Below, piece after piece: positions 4,297 to 26,469 of a stretch of DNA of 43,102 bases (the first letter of the stretch is position 1; the number at the start of each line of letters is the position of its first letter). The translations under genes were made by a program, and so were the position numbers. Source of the stretch: a virus; IMG/VR virus record IMGVR_UViG_3300042402_003359, positions 1 to 43,102 of that record; one strand, 5' to 3'. The notes beneath the pieces are model-generated. The model was not told the DNA's origin. It saw only the letters and a program-made list of their open reading frames with translations, and did not search any database.

Positions 4297-6477
4297 TTAA
4301 AATAAAGTTAAAGTACTATTTTTTTCTTCTACAAATGCTTTATGGTTATTTTTATTTAATTCAAAATAACTTTCTTTTAACTCAATACTAATAGACTTTC
4401 TATTTAATTTAATTGCACAACATCCCTCGCTACCTATGCCACCAAAAGGGCTGAATATAGTTTCATTTTCATTTGAGTATAAGTGTATAATACGTTCAAT
4501 AGTATCTAATTGTAAAGGGCATATATGTTTTTCATCGTTTCCATCACGTCCGCTTCTATATTGCAAAGTTCTTGAATAGTCAATATCATACCAAACTGGA
4601 CTTGCATACTTTTGCCATAAATCAACTGGTAAATAATCTAATCTTGCAGGGTCTTTATCTTGGTGTGTAATTGGTATTAAATTATCACCCGAATTTCTAA
4701 AGAATAATATATAATCAGGTATTCCTACCCTAGTCATTGCGCTATCCTTTTTGATTGTTTTATGAAGCAAACCTAGTGCCTTTGTTCTTTGCATTTCAGT
4801 AACTGGATTCTTCCATATAGTAGTTCTTGAATGATAAATAAATCCATTTTCTTGAAACCAATCTATAAGCATACCGCTAAAATCACGTAATCCAATATAT
4901 CCTTCTTTGCCTTTTTGTATAGGCAAATCCATGCAATGAATAGCGCATATTCTACCATCTTTTAAAATTCGTTTTAATTCAGGTATTAAATATTTAAAAT
5001 GATTTTCAAACTGCTCATAATTTGCTACATTCCCCATGTCTTCTTCTTTGTCTGAATAAACATACAACTCTGCAAAAGGTGGAGAAAAAACAATTAAATC
5101 AGCTGAATTATCAGATATTTTCTTACTTTCTTGAACACAATCGCCATTGATTAAATGATATTCGTTCGTTTTAATTTCTTTGTGCATAATTTTTACTTTT
5201 GATTTATTTGTTTTATAATTTGTTTCTGCTGAATACTTAGCCATTTCAGTAATTCTCTCTTTATGTTGTTTTTCTTTTTCTAGTATTGAATGTCTGACAT
5301 TTATTTGACTTTCTGGAATAAGTATGTGTACATAAACCTTTTCTTTTTGACCGAATCTATAACATCGTCTTACAGCTTGATAAAATGCTTCAAATTTAAA
5401 ATCATAAGACATAAATACCATTTGATTGCATTGTTGGTAATTCATACCAAATGAAGCAATAGAAGTTTTTGTGATTAGCGTTTTGAATTGTTTTTTAGCA
5501 AATCCATTTAAGTATTTAGCTTTATATTCTGGAGTATTTGAACCTTGTACATTAACACTATCATTTAATAATTTACTTAATGTATCAGTTTCATTATTTT
5601 TTAATCCCCAAACAATCCATTGTTTATCATTTGAGTTTACTAATTCAAGGGTTTTTTTAATACGTAAATCAAAACTTCTATTTAAATCTTGGTGTAAATC
5701 AGTAGCTGAAACTGCTACATCACCAAATAAAGATTGAGTATTATTTTCAACTTTGATAATATGCTCTATGTATTCAATTTCAGGCAAATAATATCCATCA
5801 CTATCAAATCCTAAAGTTTCAGGATTGTCAATTGCAATACTCCAACTAGATACATACTTCCAAAAAGGGTCTTTAGCGTGTTTACGTAAACGCCATTTAG
5901 ATGTTTCGCCACCATCATGCACAAAGAACATAGCCAACATTTCTAAATAACTCATGCCACCTAAAAACTCTGAATGTTGCCCTAATTCCATATGGTCATT
6001 TGGGCTTGGAGTTGCAGTACAGCATAATTTATAAGGAGTTTGTTTAAATTCAGTTAGTAAAAAATTAGATAATGCACCATCACGACCTTTTAAAATACTA
6101 CTTTCATCTAATACAATACCTGAATAGATTGAAGTATCAATGTTTTTTAACTGTTCATAATTTGAAATGTCAAATACATCTAACTCAATACCAAACTTAA
6201 TAGCTTCATCTTTGGTTTGTTCTACTATTGCTAATGGTGCTAAAATTAAAACTTTTTTACATGTTTTAATACATACTTGCTTTGCCCATTCTAATTGGCT
6301 AAATGTCTTACCTAATCCACAATCAAAGAAAAATGCAAATTTTCCCTTTCTTAAAGCTATTTTAATAGCATACTTTTGAAAGTCTTTTAATAATGGATTG
6401 AGTTCAGCTTCTTTAATTTCAAATCCGCTTTCAGTAAAAGTCTTTTTTTTCTGTTCTAAAAATTTTTGATAGTCCAT
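4297..6477 (-). CDS. SNF2-like helicase fused to a beta-class DNA methyltransferase
   Basis: The 726-residue protein has two parts. Residues about 30-400 are a superfamily 2 helicase/translocase: Walker A in DCGLGKT (52-58), DESS (124-127) as motif II, TATP (154-157) as motif III, and YQAVRRCYRFGQ (366-377) as motif VI. Residues about 440-726 are an amino-methyltransferase: catalytic SPPF (465-468) comes before the AdoMet-binding FGGIGS (678-683), the class-beta order typical of N4-cytosine or N6-adenine enzymes. No nuclease motif is visible. The likely role is modification of phage DNA, perhaps coupled to translocation, for anti-restriction or replication control. The methylated base cannot be told from sequence alone. 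Confidence 0.88.
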   Translation of the reverse strand: MDYQKFLEQKKKTFTESGFEIKEAELNPLLKDFQKYAIKIALRKGKFAFFFDCGLGKTFSQLEWAKQVCIKTCKKVLILAPLAIVEQTKDEAIKFGIELDVFDISNYEQLKNIDTSIYSGIVLDESSILKGRDGALSNFLLTEFKQTPYKLCCTATPSPNDHMELGQHSEFLGGMSYLEMLAMFFVHDGGETSKWRLRKHAKDPFWKYVSSWSIAIDNPETLGFDSDGYYLPEIEYIEHIIKVENNTQSLFGDVAVSATDLHQDLNRSFDLRIKKTLELVNSNDKQWIVWGLKNNETDTLSKLLNDSVNVQGSNTPEYKAKYLNGFAKKQFKTLITKTSIASFGMNYQQCNQMVFMSYDFKFEAFYQAVRRCYRFGQKEKVYVHILIPESQINVRHSILEKEKQHKERITEMAKYSAETNYKTNKSKVKIMHKEIKTNEYHLINGDCVQESKKISDNSADLIVFSPPFAELYVYSDKEEDMGNVANYEQFENHFKYLIPELKRILKDGRICAIHCMDLPIQKGKEGYIGLRDFSGMLIDWFQENGFIYHSRTTIWKNPVTEMQRTKALGLLHKTIKKDSAMTRVGIPDYILFFRNSGDNLIPITHQDKDPARLDYLPVDLWQKYASPVWYDIDYSRTLQYRSGRDGNDEKHICPLQLDTIERIIHLYSNENETIFSPFGGIGSEGCCAIKLNRKSISIELKESYFELNKNNHKAFVEEKNSTLTLF

Positions 6478-8111: not shown

Positions 8112-8126
8112 AAAGTACTATATTTG
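8112..8126 (+). promoter_or_regulatory. Promoter -7 box before the ParB-like gene
   Basis: TATATTTG (8119-8126) ends 3 bases before the ATG at 8130. The block AAAAGTACTATATTTG closely matches the promoter at 7043-7058, including the distance to the ATG. No TTTG is present at the -33 position, so it may be weak or need an activator. Confidence 0.5.
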
Positions 8127-8129
8127 ATT

Positions 8130-8675
8130 ATGGCAAAAATAAAACTAAAAGATATAAAACCTGATAGCAGGAATACAAACAAGCACACCGAGTATGGTAT
8201 GCACACATTAGATAATTCACTAGAACAAGTAGGAATAATTGAAAGCGTTACAATTAGTAATGATAATGTAATTATAAGCGGAAATGCAAGGCACGAAAAA
8301 ATAGGGCAAAAATTCACAAATGATGCTATAATAGTAGAAACTGATGGTACTACTCCAGTTGTAATAAAAAGAACAGATATTGAAAGCGGTACAAAAGAAT
8401 TTCATAAGGCTTCGATACTTGCAAACACAGTAGCACAAAAAAATCAAAATATTGATGTTGAATTAGTAGAAGTACTTGCAGACGAGTTTGAGTTTGAAGT
8501 TAGTGAGGTTTTTGTTGATGTAAATAGTGATGAAATGCCAAATTCAGCAAAAGAAAATGAAAGCGGTTTTGATAATGATATTTACTTAAACGTAAAAATG
8601 GAAAATGAAAAGGAAGCAGAAAAATTATTTAATGATTTACAAAATAAAGGCTACGAATGCAAGATAATATCATAA
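8130..8675 (+). CDS. ParB/Srx-like nuclease-fold protein (partner of ABC-GNAT)
   Basis: The ATG at 8130 is preferred to the TTG at 8124, which lies in the promoter box. Residues 1-105 of 181 are a ParB N-terminal-like domain: IKLKDIKPDSRNTNKHT, then LEQVGIIESVTI, then IISGNARHEKIGQ with the diagnostic GNxR loop (51-54), and ILANTVAQKNQNID. ParB-like domains bind or hydrolyse nucleotides and, in phages, are commonly linked to DNA modification genes. The C-terminal 30 residues form a separate small unit (IYLNVKMENEKEAEKLFNDL). Its stop overlaps the ABC-GNAT gene by 19 bp, so the two are made together. Confidence 0.82.
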   Translation: MAKIKLKDIKPDSRNTNKHTEYGMHTLDNSLEQVGIIESVTISNDNVIISGNARHEKIGQKFTNDAIIVETDGTTPVVIKRTDIESGTKEFHKASILANTVAQKNQNIDVELVEVLADEFEFEVSEVFVDVNSDEMPNSAKENESGFDNDIYLNVKMENEKEAEKLFNDLQNKGYECKIIS

Positions 8676-9799
8676 TACCTAAGCAAATTGATTTTACCTT
8701 AAAAAGCGAAGTATCGAATAGTTTCCGTTGTAAAATGGCTGCTAATTCTTTAGATATTGATGTAAATAAAAAATCTACTCATAACTTAAAAATAGAAAAT
8801 ATCAATATTCCGAATGATTGGAATATTGGGTTAGTCTATGGAGCAAGTGGAAGCGGTAAAACAACCTTAGCAAAACATCTATTTGGTAATGAAATATTTA
8901 AAACTGTACTGGATGAAGACAAAAGTATTTTAGACCAAATGCCAGAAGAGCTAGATTACAAAGAATGTGCTTCTTTGCTTACAGGCATTGGTTTAAATTC
9001 TGTGCCTTGTTGGATTAGACCAATAAAAACACTATCCAATGGACAAAAAGCAAGAGCGGAAGCAGTTTTATTAATGTGCCAAAATAATGGAATTATATGT
9101 ATAGACGAATGGACAAGCGTAGTAGATAGAACAGTTGCAAAAGCGATGAGCCACTGCATTCAAAAGTTCGCTAAAAAACAAAACAAACAAATCATATTAT
9201 TAAGTTGTCATTATGATATTTTAGAATGGGTTAAGCCTGATTGGCTTATTGATTGTAATAAACAAAGTTTTGAATTGCCAAAGTCGCAAGATTTTTTTTT
9301 TACAAAACGTGAACAACTCGAATTTACAATTAGAAAAGTTGACAGAAGTACATGGAAATATTTTAGCAAGTATCATTATTTAAGCGAAAAATTGCCAGGA
9401 GGTAAAATACATACATACGGTTTGTTTTTAGGTGAAAATCAAATAGGATTTCAATGTTTTGCAAATTATGTTCCAAATGTAAAAGGTAGAAAAGAAATAT
9501 TTCACTCAAATAGAACAGTCGTACATCCTGATTATGCTGGGTTAGGAATGGGAATTATTTTAATAAATAAAACAAGTGAATTAATTAGTAATGAATTCGA
9601 TTATAAAATAATGGCAAAATTTAGCAGTTTACCAGTTTATAATGCAATGATTAAACAAAAAGAATGGATTTTTCTTGGAGCAAAAACATTAATGGGTAAA
9701 ATGAAAACAGGGGGTTCTATGGATAGAAAGGCAGGCTTTCGTGAATATGGTGTTAAAACGTATCATTTTGAATATAAAATAAATAAAAATGATAACTAA
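8657..9799 (+). CDS. ABC-ATPase fused to Mom-like GNAT domain, candidate DNA hypermodification enzyme
   Basis: Residues 30-205 are an ABC ATPase: Walker A GASGSGKTT (62-70), signature LSNGQKAR (126-133), Walker B IICIDEW (146-152) and switch His in SCHYD (185). No transmembrane segment is present, so it is not a transporter. Residues about 215-375 are a GNAT-like domain with YFSKYHYLSEKLPGG (235-249), YGLFLGENQIGFQCFANY (254-271) and the acyl-CoA-type loop VVHPDYAGLGMG (288-299). The KYHYL..YGL pattern recalls the Mu Mom clade, which makes carbamoylmethyl-adenine. Co-occurrence of ParB, ABC-ATPase and Mom-like GNAT domains has been predicted to mark base-modification systems. Activity is inferred. 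Confidence 0.8.
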   Translation: MQDNIIIPKQIDFTLKSEVSNSFRCKMAANSLDIDVNKKSTHNLKIENINIPNDWNIGLVYGASGSGKTTLAKHLFGNEIFKTVLDEDKSILDQMPEELDYKECASLLTGIGLNSVPCWIRPIKTLSNGQKARAEAVLLMCQNNGIICIDEWTSVVDRTVAKAMSHCIQKFAKKQNKQIILLSCHYDILEWVKPDWLIDCNKQSFELPKSQDFFFTKREQLEFTIRKVDRSTWKYFSKYHYLSEKLPGGKIHTYGLFLGENQIGFQCFANYVPNVKGRKEIFHSNRTVVHPDYAGLGMGIILINKTSELISNEFDYKIMAKFSSLPVYNAMIKQKEWIFLGAKTLMGKMKTGGSMDRKAGFREYGVKTYHFEYKINKNDN

Positions 9800-10436
9800 T
9801 AACAAACATCAAATATTTGCAGATGAGTATATACTCACAAATGATGCTATAAAAAGCTATCAAAATGATATAGATATAATAATTTCAAAAATACAAAAAT
9901 CTAATGCAAATTTTGATAAATCTATACCACAAAGAGGTTATTATATTTATGGCATATTTAAAAATAATAAAATATGGTATATAGGTAAAGGAAAAAAAAA
10001 TAGAGTATTAACACATTTTTATAAAAGTTCAAATAATAGCATAAATAATGAATTAGCTCAAAATGAAAATATAATAACTTATTCAATTCTTTATACTACT
10101 AATAATGAATTACAAGCATATAAAATTGAAAAGGAATTAATAATTAGATGCAATAGTTTGAATTTTAAATTATGTAATGTTATTTATAATAAAGGAGTTA
10201 GTGAATATCCAATTTACAAGTTAATTAATATGTTTAAAAATTTTCCTAAAATAGGGAATATACATCCAGCTAATATTTTAGGAATAACAGAACGTGTTAA
10301 TATGGTTCTTAATGTAATTAGAAAATTCGCAGTAAATCCTATAATGATAAATGGAATTGATATTACAAAAATTGAAGCTAAAAGAATAATATGTGAAAAT
10401 TATGAAACTTATAAGTTTAAATATATTGTATCATAA
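9789..10436 (+). CDS. GIY-YIG endonuclease
   Basis: The 215-residue protein has the GIY-YIG nuclease core at residues 50-130: YYIYGIF (51-57), WYIGKGKKNRV (63-73) with the conserved Arg72, and a candidate metal-binding Glu115 in YKIEKEL, then LCN (128-130). Spacing resembles the LEM-3-like subgroup. The C-terminal 80 residues may give DNA specificity. It overlaps the ABC-GNAT gene by 11 bp and is even more AT-rich than its neighbours, which fits a mobile homing-type nuclease. A functional link with the modification genes cannot be excluded. Confidence 0.85.
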   Translation: MITNNKHQIFADEYILTNDAIKSYQNDIDIIISKIQKSNANFDKSIPQRGYYIYGIFKNNKIWYIGKGKKNRVLTHFYKSSNNSINNELAQNENIITYSILYTTNNELQAYKIEKELIIRCNSLNFKLCNVIYNKGVSEYPIYKLINMFKNFPKIGNIHPANILGITERVNMVLNVIRKFAVNPIMINGIDITKIEAKRIICENYETYKFKYIVS

Positions 10437-10459: not shown

Positions 10460-10783
10460 ATGCCAAAAGGAGAGAATTTAAAAGGTAAGGGGGGTAAGTT
10501 ATTCAGTAGCACAAATCAACCACCAAATGAAGCTAAAAGAGTTCCTAAAAGAATAACTAGGTTTAAAGATGCTTTAAATCACTTTGGAGAAGTGGTCAAA
10601 AGTAATGTTGGAGGTACTGAATTAACACTAGAAAGCAATATCGCTTATGTATTAATGGATAAGGCAAATAAAGGCGACTTACAAGCAATAAAACTACTAA
10701 TTGATGTATTCGGGTGGAATGCTTCTACAAAACAAGATATCACAATATTAAAAGGTGCAGATGATTTATTCATTGAGGAATAA
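10460..10783 (+). CDS. terS: Putative small terminase subunit
   Basis: The 107-residue protein begins with a basic Gly-rich segment (MPKGENLKGKGGKLF). A helical region follows (RFKDALNHFGEVVKSNVGG, then KANKGDLQAIKLLIDVFG) like the DNA-binding small terminase proteins of Bacteroidota phages. Its stop overlaps the ATG of the large terminase (TAATG). The assignment relies on position and general layout more than on a diagnostic motif. Confidence 0.7.
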   Translation: MPKGENLKGKGGKLFSSTNQPPNEAKRVPKRITRFKDALNHFGEVVKSNVGGTELTLESNIAYVLMDKANKGDLQAIKLLIDVFGWNASTKQDITILKGADDLFIEE

Positions 10784-12072
10784 TGCAAAAATTCAAGATA
10801 AAACGAGAATGGTATAGTTTACACTTCAAATCTTTTTTAGCTTCTAAAAATAGGTATCAAATATTGTGGGGCGGTCGAGGTGGTGGTAAAACACATAACA
10901 TTATACTTAAACTAATATCAATATCATTTCTACAGGAGTATAATCATATAGTATATGTCAATAAGGTATTTGGTGACATTCGTAAAAATCAATTCAAAGA
11001 TATAATTAAGGTATTAAAAGCACTTGGATTGACTAAGTACTTTAGTATTAATAAAACCAATTACGGATTTAAAAACTTAATTACAGGCACAGAGTTTACA
11101 GCACTCGGAATGGATAATGCAGAAAATACAAAAGGACTTTCAGACCCTACTATTATATGGTGGGATGAGATAAACAAAGGTAGTCAAGATGATTTTACTA
11201 CATTAAATGCACTACTTAGAACTCCATTAAATAAGAATCATCAATTTATAATTAGCTTTAATCCAGTTGATGTCAATAGCTGGTTAAGGACTTATTTCTT
11301 TGATGAAAATAATGATAGTAAAATAAAAGTTGATTTCTTAGATTCTTATGTTAATCATTCTACATTTGCCAATAACGAATTTATAGATAGAGAAAAATAT
11401 GAAGAAACATTAAGGCTCAATTATTCACATAATCAAAATTTACTCGATGTCAATTTATATGGTAAATGGGGTAAAGCCGAAGTAGACAAACCATTTATCC
11501 CTACATTCAGAAAAGAAAAACACGTACAAGATTGTGAATATAATAATGGAACTATTTACCTTAGCTTTGACTTTAACGTCAATCCTATGACTTGTATAGC
11601 AGGGCAATTACAAGGCAATAAGATTGTAGTAATTGAAGAATTTGTATTAAGAGATAGTGATATTTACGAACTATGCGACCATATAAGAATGAAATTGCCA
11701 AAATCTAATAATATAATGGTAACAGGTGATGCCACAGGCAAAAATAGACAAGCAATTAGTAAGGGTGGAATAACTTATTATCAAGTAATTGCAGACAAAT
11801 TAAAGCTATCTGGCTATCAATTTGTAATACCTAGTGTCAATCATTCTAATTTGAATAGCAGGGAGTTAATTAGCAGGGCGTTCCATACTGATTTGTGTTA
11901 TATCAATCCGAATTGTAAACTTATGATAAATGACTTGACTTATTGCGAGGTTGGTAGTGATGGCAAGTTATTAAAGAAAACTACAGGCACAGGCTCTGAA
12001 TTATCACACTTAATGGATTGCTTGAAGTATCTTTTAATCAATAATTTTAAAGATAAGTTAGATTTTAATTAA
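10783..12072 (+). CDS. terL: Large terminase subunit
   Basis: The 429-residue protein has the terminase ATPase motifs, Walker A GGRGGGKT (30-37) and Walker B TIIWWDE (123-129), followed by coupling motif FIISFNP. The C-terminal RNase H-like nuclease has acidic residues in LSFDFNVNP (D263) and MVTGDATGK (D316), and a late Asp in SHLMDCLKYLL. It is of the PBSX/Terminase_3 type. It cuts and packages concatemeric DNA through the portal encoded at 20268. Confidence 0.95.
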   Translation: MQKFKIKREWYSLHFKSFLASKNRYQILWGGRGGGKTHNIILKLISISFLQEYNHIVYVNKVFGDIRKNQFKDIIKVLKALGLTKYFSINKTNYGFKNLITGTEFTALGMDNAENTKGLSDPTIIWWDEINKGSQDDFTTLNALLRTPLNKNHQFIISFNPVDVNSWLRTYFFDENNDSKIKVDFLDSYVNHSTFANNEFIDREKYEETLRLNYSHNQNLLDVNLYGKWGKAEVDKPFIPTFRKEKHVQDCEYNNGTIYLSFDFNVNPMTCIAGQLQGNKIVVIEEFVLRDSDIYELCDHIRMKLPKSNNIMVTGDATGKNRQAISKGGITYYQVIADKLKLSGYQFVIPSVNHSNLNSRELISRAFHTDLCYINPNCKLMINDLTYCEVGSDGKLLKKTTGTGSELSHLMDCLKYLLINNFKDKLDFN

Positions 12073-25150: not shown

Positions 25151-25390
25151 ATGAAACGATTATTTATTACTTTGGTTATTCATTTTTTATTCTTATTTAC
25201 TTTGATAGTTTATTTATGTTCATGCTCAAAAGATTGTGATGAGTGTACATATAAAAATATGAAAGATAACGGATTGTATAAAATTACATATCCATACACA
25301 GAAACATTCACAGATAATAATGGAGTGGTTGTAATTAAAAAGACTTATTACACTCCAAAGCAATTATGCAAGGCTTATAAATGTCCTTAA
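25151..25390 (+). CDS. Small lipoprotein
   Basis: The 79-residue product has a lipoprotein signal: basic MKR, hydrophobic stretch (LVIHFLFLFTLIVYL) and lipobox LCSC at about residues 22-25, followed by SKDCDEC. It should be lipidated and exposed at an envelope membrane. In phages such proteins serve in superinfection exclusion or as outer-membrane spanin subunits; neither can be assigned. It overlaps the oppositely oriented methyltransferase at the shared TTAA (25387-25390). Confidence 0.7.
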   Translation: MKRLFITLVIHFLFLFTLIVYLCSCSKDCDECTYKNMKDNGLYKITYPYTETFTDNNGVVVIKKTYYTPKQLCKAYKCP

Positions 25391-26469
25391 AATTTACTTA
25401 ACCATTGTTCATAAACTTGTTTTGCTATTTGTGCAGTCATTACAGGGGGAACACTCATTCCTATTAAATAATTTGGTTTAAGTCCTAAAAAGTTATAATC
25501 TTGAGGATAGCTTCCTATTTTTTTTGCTTCTGTGTCGCTCGTATATCTTGGCTCGTCAAATAAACAATAACAGTCTTTTTTTGTCGTTAAAGTGCCACAA
25601 ACATTATCATCATATAAAAAATTAGTTCCAAAACCTGTATTCTCTTTTCCTCTTTCTCTACCATTTATGTTAGCAAAAGAAGCATCTCCTTTTTGTCTTT
25701 TTTCCCAGAGAGTTTTATAAAAATCACTTATTGGATAGTCATTATTGTTTTTGTCTTTTACTTTTTTAAATGGAATTTCTTTTTCATTAAAAGAAATTTC
25801 TATTTTAGGTAATTCTGTAAACATATCTGCAAAATGTAAAAACGGTTGTGCTAAATTCTGTCTTAATGCTATAAAAAAAACACGTTCTCTTTTTTGTGGC
25901 ACACCCATTTTTGAAGCATCTAACAAAAAATGTTGACAATAATAACCAGCTTTATCAAATGCATCATAAATTTTAATAACATATTGTTTAGCTTCTCCCA
26001 TTAATAAACCTTTTACATTTTCAGCTACTACTACTTTCGGTTGTAATTCTTTTGCTAAATCAATAAAATCAAAAAATAAAGTATCTAAAACTTGTTCAGC
26101 TTGTCCTTCTCTAAACACTTTTTCTTTTCCCCAGTCTTTTTCTCTATTTCCAGCCATTGAAAAACTGCTACAAGGTGGCGAACCATCTAAAATATCCAAA
26201 TTGTATAATTCATCAGGCAAATCAGTTCTTAATTTAAAGGTCTGTATTGGCTCTAAATAAGCATATTTTGGATTGTGGTTCACTTTGTATGCTTCAATCA
26301 TTTTAGGGTCAATTTCATTGCATCCTAATACATCAAATCCAGCTAATTTATAACCCATTGTTGAACCACCACCACAAGCAAAGCAAGAAAATACTTTGCC
26401 TTTGTCTTTGGTAAATACTGCATCTTTTAAAGTCCACCTGTAAGGGAAATTATGTTTATTGTTTTTCAT
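25387..26469 (-). CDS. C5-cytosine DNA methyltransferase
   Basis: All main motifs of the Dcm/DNMT family can be seen in 360 residues: AdoMet-binding motif I VFSCFACGGGSTMG (26-39), catalytic motif IV GSPPCSSFS (96-104, Cys100), ENV (150-152), QKRERVF (192-198), a variable target region (about 200-320) and the C-terminal motif near LIGMSVPPVM (about 335-345). It methylates cytosine C5 at an unknown sequence. No restriction endonuclease lies beside it, so it is probably an orphan used to evade restriction. It is the last gene in the leftward block and may have its own promoter. Confidence 0.95.
   Translation of the reverse strand: MKNNKHNFPYRWTLKDAVFTKDKGKVFSCFACGGGSTMGYKLAGFDVLGCNEIDPKMIEAYKVNHNPKYAYLEPIQTFKLRTDLPDELYNLDILDGSPPCSSFSMAGNREKDWGKEKVFREGQAEQVLDTLFFDFIDLAKELQPKVVVAENVKGLLMGEAKQYVIKIYDAFDKAGYYCQHFLLDASKMGVPQKRERVFFIALRQNLAQPFLHFADMFTELPKIEISFNEKEIPFKKVKDKNNNDYPISDFYKTLWEKRQKGDASFANINGRERGKENTGFGTNFLYDDNVCGTLTTKKDCYCLFDEPRYTSDTEAKKIGSYPQDYNFLGLKPNYLIGMSVPPVMTAQIAKQVYEQWLSKF

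Follow-up and report, generated by a model that had tools for sequence, protein, structure and literature searches.

We regard it as probable, at roughly 70%, that the window, by which we mean the whole 43-kb virus record analysed here (43,102 nucleotides), carries one form of an exchangeable DNA-modification cassette made up of a ParB platform, a docking tail and an ATP-gated base acyltransferase. That a ParB partner and an ABC-ATPase/GNAT protein form a DNA-modification system had been proposed from the sequence alone, and the proposal is strongly supported, because the ABC-GNAT gene is replaced in related phages by other modification enzymes at the same slot and the C-terminal tail of ParB changes with the enzyme.

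The gene pair and its surroundings

The features of the window are collected in Table 1. Both reading frames of the pair are open and overlap by 19 bp, as had been read from the letters. The window ParB matched the PHROG ParB family phrog_498 (2e-9); it did not match Pfam PF02195 at E up to 1, although its relatives do (e.g. L173, 2e-7). No match to phrog_1384 was found anywhere in the window.

Table 1. Positions of the ParB/ABC-GNAT pair, its parts and other genes in the window
Feature	Position	Strand	Basis or remark
ParB-like reading frame	8130-8675	+	ATG start; TTG at 8124 is an alternative start
ABC-ATPase/GNAT fusion reading frame, 380 aa, soluble	8657-9799	+	open reading frame
ParB N-terminal domain, common to terminase siblings with other enzymes	8130..8522	+	DNA and protein identity, PHROG
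C-terminal tail of ParB, ABC-GNAT type; proposed to dock the enzyme	8523..8675	+	tail matches
Soluble ABC ATPase domain, fusion residues 1-213	8657..9295	+	PF00005, conserved motifs, model
GNAT domain, fusion residues 214-380	9296..9799	+	model, PDB matches, conservation
Exchangeable segment (ParB tail and enzyme)	8523..9788	+	junctions versus siblings
GIY-YIG nuclease-like reading frame	9789..10436	+	PF22945 5e-5, bits under its cut-off; starts at right junction
Terminase small-subunit-like reading frame	10460-10783	+	by position; PF18932 0.0086, under its cut-off, in terminase region
Terminase large subunit	10783-12072	+	PF04466 3e-31
Helicase-like protein with N6_N4 methylase domain	4297-6477	-	PF01555, 1e-20
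C5 cytosine methylase	25387-26469	-	PF00145, 1.5e-45

The GIY-YIG-like frame also gave a weak PADLOC match to PD-T4-3 (1e-4); lying at the right junction, it may drive exchange of the cassette. With the two methylase-domain genes encoded on the other strand, the phage seems to carry three DNA-modification systems.

The ABC-GNAT protein

The fusion protein matched PF00005 (ABC ATPase) with 7e-8 and the phage family phrog_11143 with 1.4e-78 over residues 14-358, spanning both domains. A complete soluble ABC ATPase had been recognized in its first part, and this was borne out: Walker A and B, the signature and the switch His are all present and are conserved across 63 aligned sequences (the window among them, with reading frames of 340-410 aa). 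The checked Walker A residues, S127, G129 and the Walker B residues D150 and E151 are invariant in 63/63, N128 and H185 are kept in 62/63 and Q130 in 61/63. In the second domain, H240, Y241, H283, R286 and the three glycines of the GxGxG loop (G295, G297, G299) are likewise invariant in 63/63.

The second domain had been called GNAT-like, and a GNAT fold was indeed predicted for residues 214-380 (pLDDT 84), placing it in the GNAT superfamily. This domain was folded alone; for the full-length protein the listed Foldseek matches were ABC chains, and the VIA matches were a mixture of ABC and GNAT. The best PDB match of the GNAT model was 1y9k (Z 13.9, rmsd 3.3 A, 139 aligned), with RimI, Ard1 and SpeG chains less than 1 Z below it, and the 50 best PDB matches listed were ordinary GNATs within a spread of 1.2 Z (12.7-13.9). 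The canonical acyl-CoA loop of the GNAT and the conserved ABC motifs speak for the proposed modification cassette. A seemingly single-chain ParB-ABC-GNAT fusion in L050 was rejected, as its long N-terminal part looks read out of frame.

Relationship of the GNAT domain to Mom

The sequence-only reading had singled out two blocks as recalling phage Mu Mom. One of them, KYHYL...YGL, does have a Mom counterpart, KHYS...LGV; the other, HPDYAGLGMG, turned out to be the acyl-CoA loop of ordinary GNATs, a feature missing from Mom. Against PF25680, genuine Mom proteins gave values of 2e-46 to 3e-50, and this family was absent from the 22 Pfam families matched by window proteins at E up to 1. HY, E-L-x-R and S-x-A-D do not vary among the eight Mom sequences compared. 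The ABC-GNAT family keeps the HY and the Arg, R286 falling on the Mom Arg by profile alignment; by the same alignment the position of Mom Glu98 is His283 in the window GNAT, and no counterpart of SxAD is kept in ABC-GNAT, where KFSS is found by eye.

Profile comparisons were made with hhalign in local mode beside seven unrelated controls, which gave E 0.04 to 0.7. The first Mom profile gave E 1.3e-5, but with HY one residue out of register, and the second gave E 0.066, like the controls, with HY in register. The PHROG Mom family was matched by 32/46 GNAT domains at E up to 1, the best at 5e-4. The Mom structure 8bv8 lies outside the 50 best PDB matches listed, and a phage Mom model ranks 7 in the viral library.

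Membership of the Mom family was rejected on the missing PF25680 match, the differing key residues and the canonical acyl-CoA loop. Because PF25680 is unmatched, the residues differ and the profile E values are weak, the window GNAT appears by sequence to be a distant cousin of Mom at most, with an ordinary acyl-CoA loop. What stands of the Mom-like assignment is thus one of two profile comparisons above the controls, while PF25680, Glu98 and SxAD speak against it. A structure resembling ordinary acetyltransferases and lacking a Mom-like site had been named beforehand as the result that would count against the idea; such a result was obtained in part with regard to Mom, and was not obtained with regard to DNA modification. 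In Aeromonas phage PX29 (two records, L128 and L131), an ABC-GNAT relative (31% identity) occurs together with a Mom-like protein, the two lying at distant places in the genome.

Distribution of ABC-GNAT and its ParB neighbour

Relatives of the ABC-GNAT protein were found in 80 viral contigs, retained out of 81 and including a near copy of the window, and in 79 phage records, 21 of which cover at least 80% of the query at one place; the listed matches in nickie and a Rhizobium phage are to the ABC part alone. A scan of genome contigs yielded 2 relatives only. The hosts range from Pasteurella and Leptospira through to Gordonia, Lactococcus and Streptococcus. In phages P335 and MismyG, a ParB is followed by ABC and GNAT as two individual genes, and in MismyG, a Streptococcus phage, an ASCH-domain protein (L121:6105-6473) is encoded directly 3' of the GNAT gene. 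The ASCH domain is a predicted reader of modified bases.

For the family statistics the window itself (L001) and its near copy (L002) were excluded, and 12 further loci were too near a contig end to be counted. At 67 of the 69 places with room, a reading frame of at least 100 aa has its end in the interval from 150 nt upstream of the ABC-GNAT start to 60 nt downstream of it, with an overlap of exactly 19 bp in 29 places and of 4 bp in 25. The ParB profile was matched at E up to 1e-3 by 58 of 64 such upstream frames (L002, L041 and L042 left out, the last two also from the ParB alignment). Since relatives occur in 80 viral contigs and a frame recurs in the ParB position, the pairing is not a matter of chance. 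ABC-GNAT was seen without an annotated ParB, in the stretch examined, in Nonlabens P12024S and Enterococcus 9184, and no terminase is annotated in the stretch examined around the ABC-GNAT of pT24 and PX29.

Replacement of ABC-GNAT by other modification enzymes

A terminase large subunit (TerL) 98-100% identical to that of the window was found in eight contigs, one of which, the near copy L002, has the same cassette. All of the other seven (7/7) lack ABC-GNAT, and each has another modification enzyme after, or fused to, the same ParB: a TAGT glycosyltransferase with TET/JBP in L158, an N6_N4 methylase in L159 and L164 (ParB-methylase), and a C5 methylase in the near-identical contigs L160-L163. 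These seven siblings represent four distinct arrangements, L160, L161 and L162 having identical DNA where compared. Seven more loci, with TerL 35-40% identical, have neither ParB nor ABC-GNAT.

A second lineage, that of L004, has 56 relatives, and its TerL shares 23% identity with that of the window in the region aligned by BLAST. ParB was recognized in 14/56, several of them near-duplicates, and in 14/14 it was paired with a modification-type partner, namely TAGT, FkbM with TET/JBP, PAPS reductase (L176), Mom (PF25680 6e-50) or N6_N4 methylase; the other 42/56, some of which are short contigs, gave no ParB match. A PAPS reductase, a TAGT alone or an FkbM in the slot is not by itself proof of DNA modification. 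Among Lactococcus phages, P335 has ParB-ABC-GNAT and LT996078 a ParB-N6_N4 methylase fusion, and TP901-1 has no gene annotated between ALT and TerS. The P335 module comes after ALT, whose TP901-1 counterpart is annotated as activator of late transcription; P335 and TP901-1, with and without the module, form a harmless pair for bench work. The environmental terminase lineage of L039 comprised 2 loci only, one of them the L039 contig itself. Replacement at the slot was encountered in three lineages, those of the window, of L004 and of the Lactococcus phages. It provides genetic evidence, independent of homology, for DNA modification by the ABC-GNAT family.

A sequence junction inside parB

As far as 8522-8534, a point inside parB, the DNA of the window is 86-89% identical to that of its seven siblings, and no DNA match to the ParB tail region was found in any of the seven (L203-L206 were kept out of the junction comparison). 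The match resumes at 9789 in L158, L159 (84 bp) and L164, and at 10436 in L160-L163. At the protein level, 120-130 of 131 residues of the ParB N-domain are identical between the window and its siblings, against 10-14 of 35-48 aligned residues in the tail. The L004 lineage behaves alike: in all ten siblings compared, the match to L004 breaks off at its positions 5856-5871, again inside parB, and the N-domain shares 95-114 of 118-120 residues in nine siblings and 69 of 119 in the tenth, L185. Because the same N-domain is found in siblings with other enzymes, it belongs to the phage backbone. We had considered from its fast divergence at 22 loci that ParB might be a sequence-specificity domain, and rejected this since siblings share the N-domain.

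The ParB tail follows the class of the enzyme

Among 45 ParBs, pairs with an N-domain score of at least 0.9 had a median tail score of 0.11 when the partner types differed (31 pairs) and a tail score of 0.84 when they were the same (5 pairs). A larger test used 105 ParBs of 150-215 aa, divided into N-domain and tail by a motif pattern, with L242 and L004 (same contig as L172) excluded. The nearest tail was of the same class for 104 of them with no limit on the N-domain score and for 103, 91 and 79 when that score was below 0.8, 0.7 and 0.6; the maxima after shuffling were 69, 70, 68 and 69, respectively. ABC-GNAT partners account for 72/105 and were always assigned rightly, and the other 33 tails, among which a single PAPS tail can never score right, were right in 32, 31, 19 and 7 cases at the same four settings. 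The test weakens among distant ParBs, for which the set may lack partners of the same class.

Three tails from the window lineage, whose N-domains are unrelated to the others in the set (scores of at most 0.13 among the best matches), were divided by hand at residue 126 and assigned rightly in 3/3 cases. The window tail went to ABC-GNAT (108 at best, against 41 or less for any other class), that of L158 to TET (300 vs 64) and that of L160 to C5 (128 vs 50). The eight best matches of the window tail all have ABC-GNAT partners, at N-domain scores of 0.07-0.13. Some ParB tails have a CxxC zinc-ribbon-like end (L132:1969-2502, L295:4001-4534, L299:1244-1693), and in Microbacterium phage Blett a different, zinc-ribbon-like tail is found beside a Mom. 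Mu Com, the activator of mom translation, is also described as a zinc-finger protein in the part of the source consulted (PMC6483171).

Partners of ParB in general

We also surveyed loci from the ParB side, seeding with the ParBs of modification-enzyme loci and taking the best 80 of at least 588. These comprised 33 fused N6_N4 methylases (with low-scoring calls such as L282, 37, and L244, 44), 13 Mom, 12 ABC-GNAT, 9 TAGT, 3 C5 methylases, 1 FkbM and 9 others. A DNA-modification-type partner was thus present at 59/68 of the loci without ABC-GNAT among these best 80 of at least 588. The other nine were L266 and L302 (HTH_8), L299 (DUF5681), L295 (a small GNAT), L260 (contig end), L270, which the final scan, covering 11 unassigned partners, did not include, and L236, L268 and L307. 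The partners in these last three (L236:2428-3156, L268:1063-1854, L307:4590-5384) are 243-265 aa long, have no Pfam match and are candidate DNA-modification enzymes.

In Blett, ParB lies directly beside a true Mom (PF25680 2e-46). By tblastn, Mu Mom matched 290 phage records, and among five examined (L130-L134) ParB stands directly before Mom in Blett and Phonegingi.

Proposed mechanism and alternatives

We propose that the cassette, which lies shortly before the terminase genes, would work as follows. The ParB N-domain would be a fixed platform of the phage backbone that brings the partner enzyme to phage DNA, and ParB may track that DNA. The short C-terminal tail, inherited with the enzyme, would dock it. 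The ABC part, as had been suggested before, may act as a gate, dimerising on DNA in an ATP-driven manner to control acyl transfer. A short time before packaging, the GNAT would then move an acyl group from acyl-CoA to an exocyclic base amine, and packaged DNA bearing this mark would resist host nucleases. A wider version, to which we give slightly better than even odds, holds that ParB is a universal socket, that the enzyme and its docking tail are swapped by recombination inside parB, and that the plugs include TET/JBP, methylases, Mom and an ATP-gated acyltransferase making an undescribed base. If so, the tail would predict the class of partners such as L236, L268 and L307.

Two other readings keep the GNAT at the centre. 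It might perform true Mom chemistry and convert adenine to the methylcarbamoyl derivative, ABC and ParB then having accessory roles; the HY and NR motifs are ordered as in Mom, one Mom profile aligned at 1.3e-5, and Mom fills the same slot in relatives. We consider this improbable, given that PF25680 is unmatched at E up to 1, that Glu98 is replaced by His283 and SxAD is absent (KFSS by eye), that the second profile at 0.066 behaved like a control and that the acyl-CoA loop is canonical, unlike that of Mom. Alternatively the GNAT might acylate a host or phage protein and share the slot by chance. Its fold resembles those of RimI, Ard1, SpeG and other ordinary GNATs among the 50 best listed (Z 12.7-13.9), and ordinary protein and polyamine GNATs match it as well as anything listed. 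Yet TET/JBP, Mom and the C5 and N6/N4 methylases occupy the same slot beside the same ParB, and the tail differs according to the enzyme, so that this reading is very unlikely.

The last alternative makes ParB a nuclease and its partner the protector of self DNA, the two forming a small restriction-modification pair aimed at competing phages or at the host. Nucleases of the ParB/Srx kind are known (Maindola 2014, as cited in PMC10853773, seen in part), and fusions of Mom to a restriction endonuclease in jumbo phages are mentioned in the portion of PMC7824862 consulted. However, one ParB domain is kept while unlike modifications are swapped, and therefore a single nuclease would presumably need to be blocked by all of them; we hold this explanation, too, to be unlikely. 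For the ABC-GNAT pair we accordingly prefer the exchangeable modification cassette. A constant ParB domain with an enzyme-linked tail would give a direct, testable answer on the role of ParB, and new modification enzymes could be sought by position together with the ParB tail.

Comparison with known systems

In 2013 Iyer and Aravind reportedly described a GNAT coupled to an ABC ATPase as a predicted DNA acyl-modification system. ABC-GNAT is given as such a prediction by Iyer and Aravind, with Tenacibaculum phage pT24 named, in the portion of PMC7824862 consulted, which makes no mention of ParB as a platform, of replacement at the slot or of matched tails. The pT24 protein is of the same family as that of the window (37.4% identity, E 5e-48). 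A paper of December 2025 on phage cytosine hypermodification gives the function of the ParB domain there as unknown (PMC12783734, in part), and in a cryoconite Mu-like phage the packaging module varies in its methylases, with an acetyltransferase in one variant and ParB in a figure legend (PMC7468147, in part). In the sources available to us, which took in few of the subscription papers and some of which were consulted in part, we came across no description of a constant ParB domain whose tails match the enzyme, or of a plug-and-socket arrangement. By title and abstract, none of the literature on COG2401 concerned the ABC-GNAT family, the main text of the MetaGPA paper (PMC8670742) contains no whole-word Mom, ABC or ParB, and the parts consulted of PMC7761591 and PMC12707154 contain nothing on ABC-GNAT.

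The Mom family (PF25680; phage Mu Mom, PDB 8bv8) shares with the window GNAT the fold and the HY and NR motifs, and in relatives it stands at this slot beside a ParB of the same kind; it differs in family and in key residues, and the window protein has an additional ABC domain and an ordinary acyl-CoA loop. The ParB-DNA methyltransferase fusions (phrog_498) have the same ParB N-domain and, in siblings, the same slot, but there the enzyme is fused to ParB, whereas in the window it would be docked by the tail, and the group transferred is methyl rather than, as we suppose, acyl.

SSU5-type phage-plasmids and Pseudomonas phage nickie have the order ParB-ABC-small reading frame-phrog_886, with TerL downstream where the record shows it. 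The ABC proteins of nickie and of an Acinetobacter plasmid matched phrog_11143 at 1e-23 and 6e-30. Unlike in the window, the GNAT-like part (phrog_886) is separate and longer, with E 7e-4 and 1e-3 against the window GNAT; SSU5, Cyrano and ST13-OXA48phi12.3 have two ParBs, and Cyrano lacks the small frame. Members of phrog_886, a family named ABC transporter subunit, show HYKAE, R-x-V, YRGxG and KFN (L125:2718-3671, L124:5434-6315, and SSU5, L156), and to judge by sequence the family, found in phage-plasmids and related phages as part of ParB-ABC clusters, resembles a GNAT that has diverged.

Dnd phosphorothioation likewise combines a ParB-superfamily protein (DndB), an ABC protein (DndD) and a modifying enzyme, and a PAPS reductase is found in the slot of L176. 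DndC is PAPS-reductase-like. The enzymes and chemistry are different, and DndD derives from an ABC with a coiled-coil insert (PMC10853773, in part), for which the 213-residue ABC domain of the window would have no room. With these differences, Dnd is the nearest working analogy for a set of ParB, ABC and enzyme (PMC10853773, in the part consulted).
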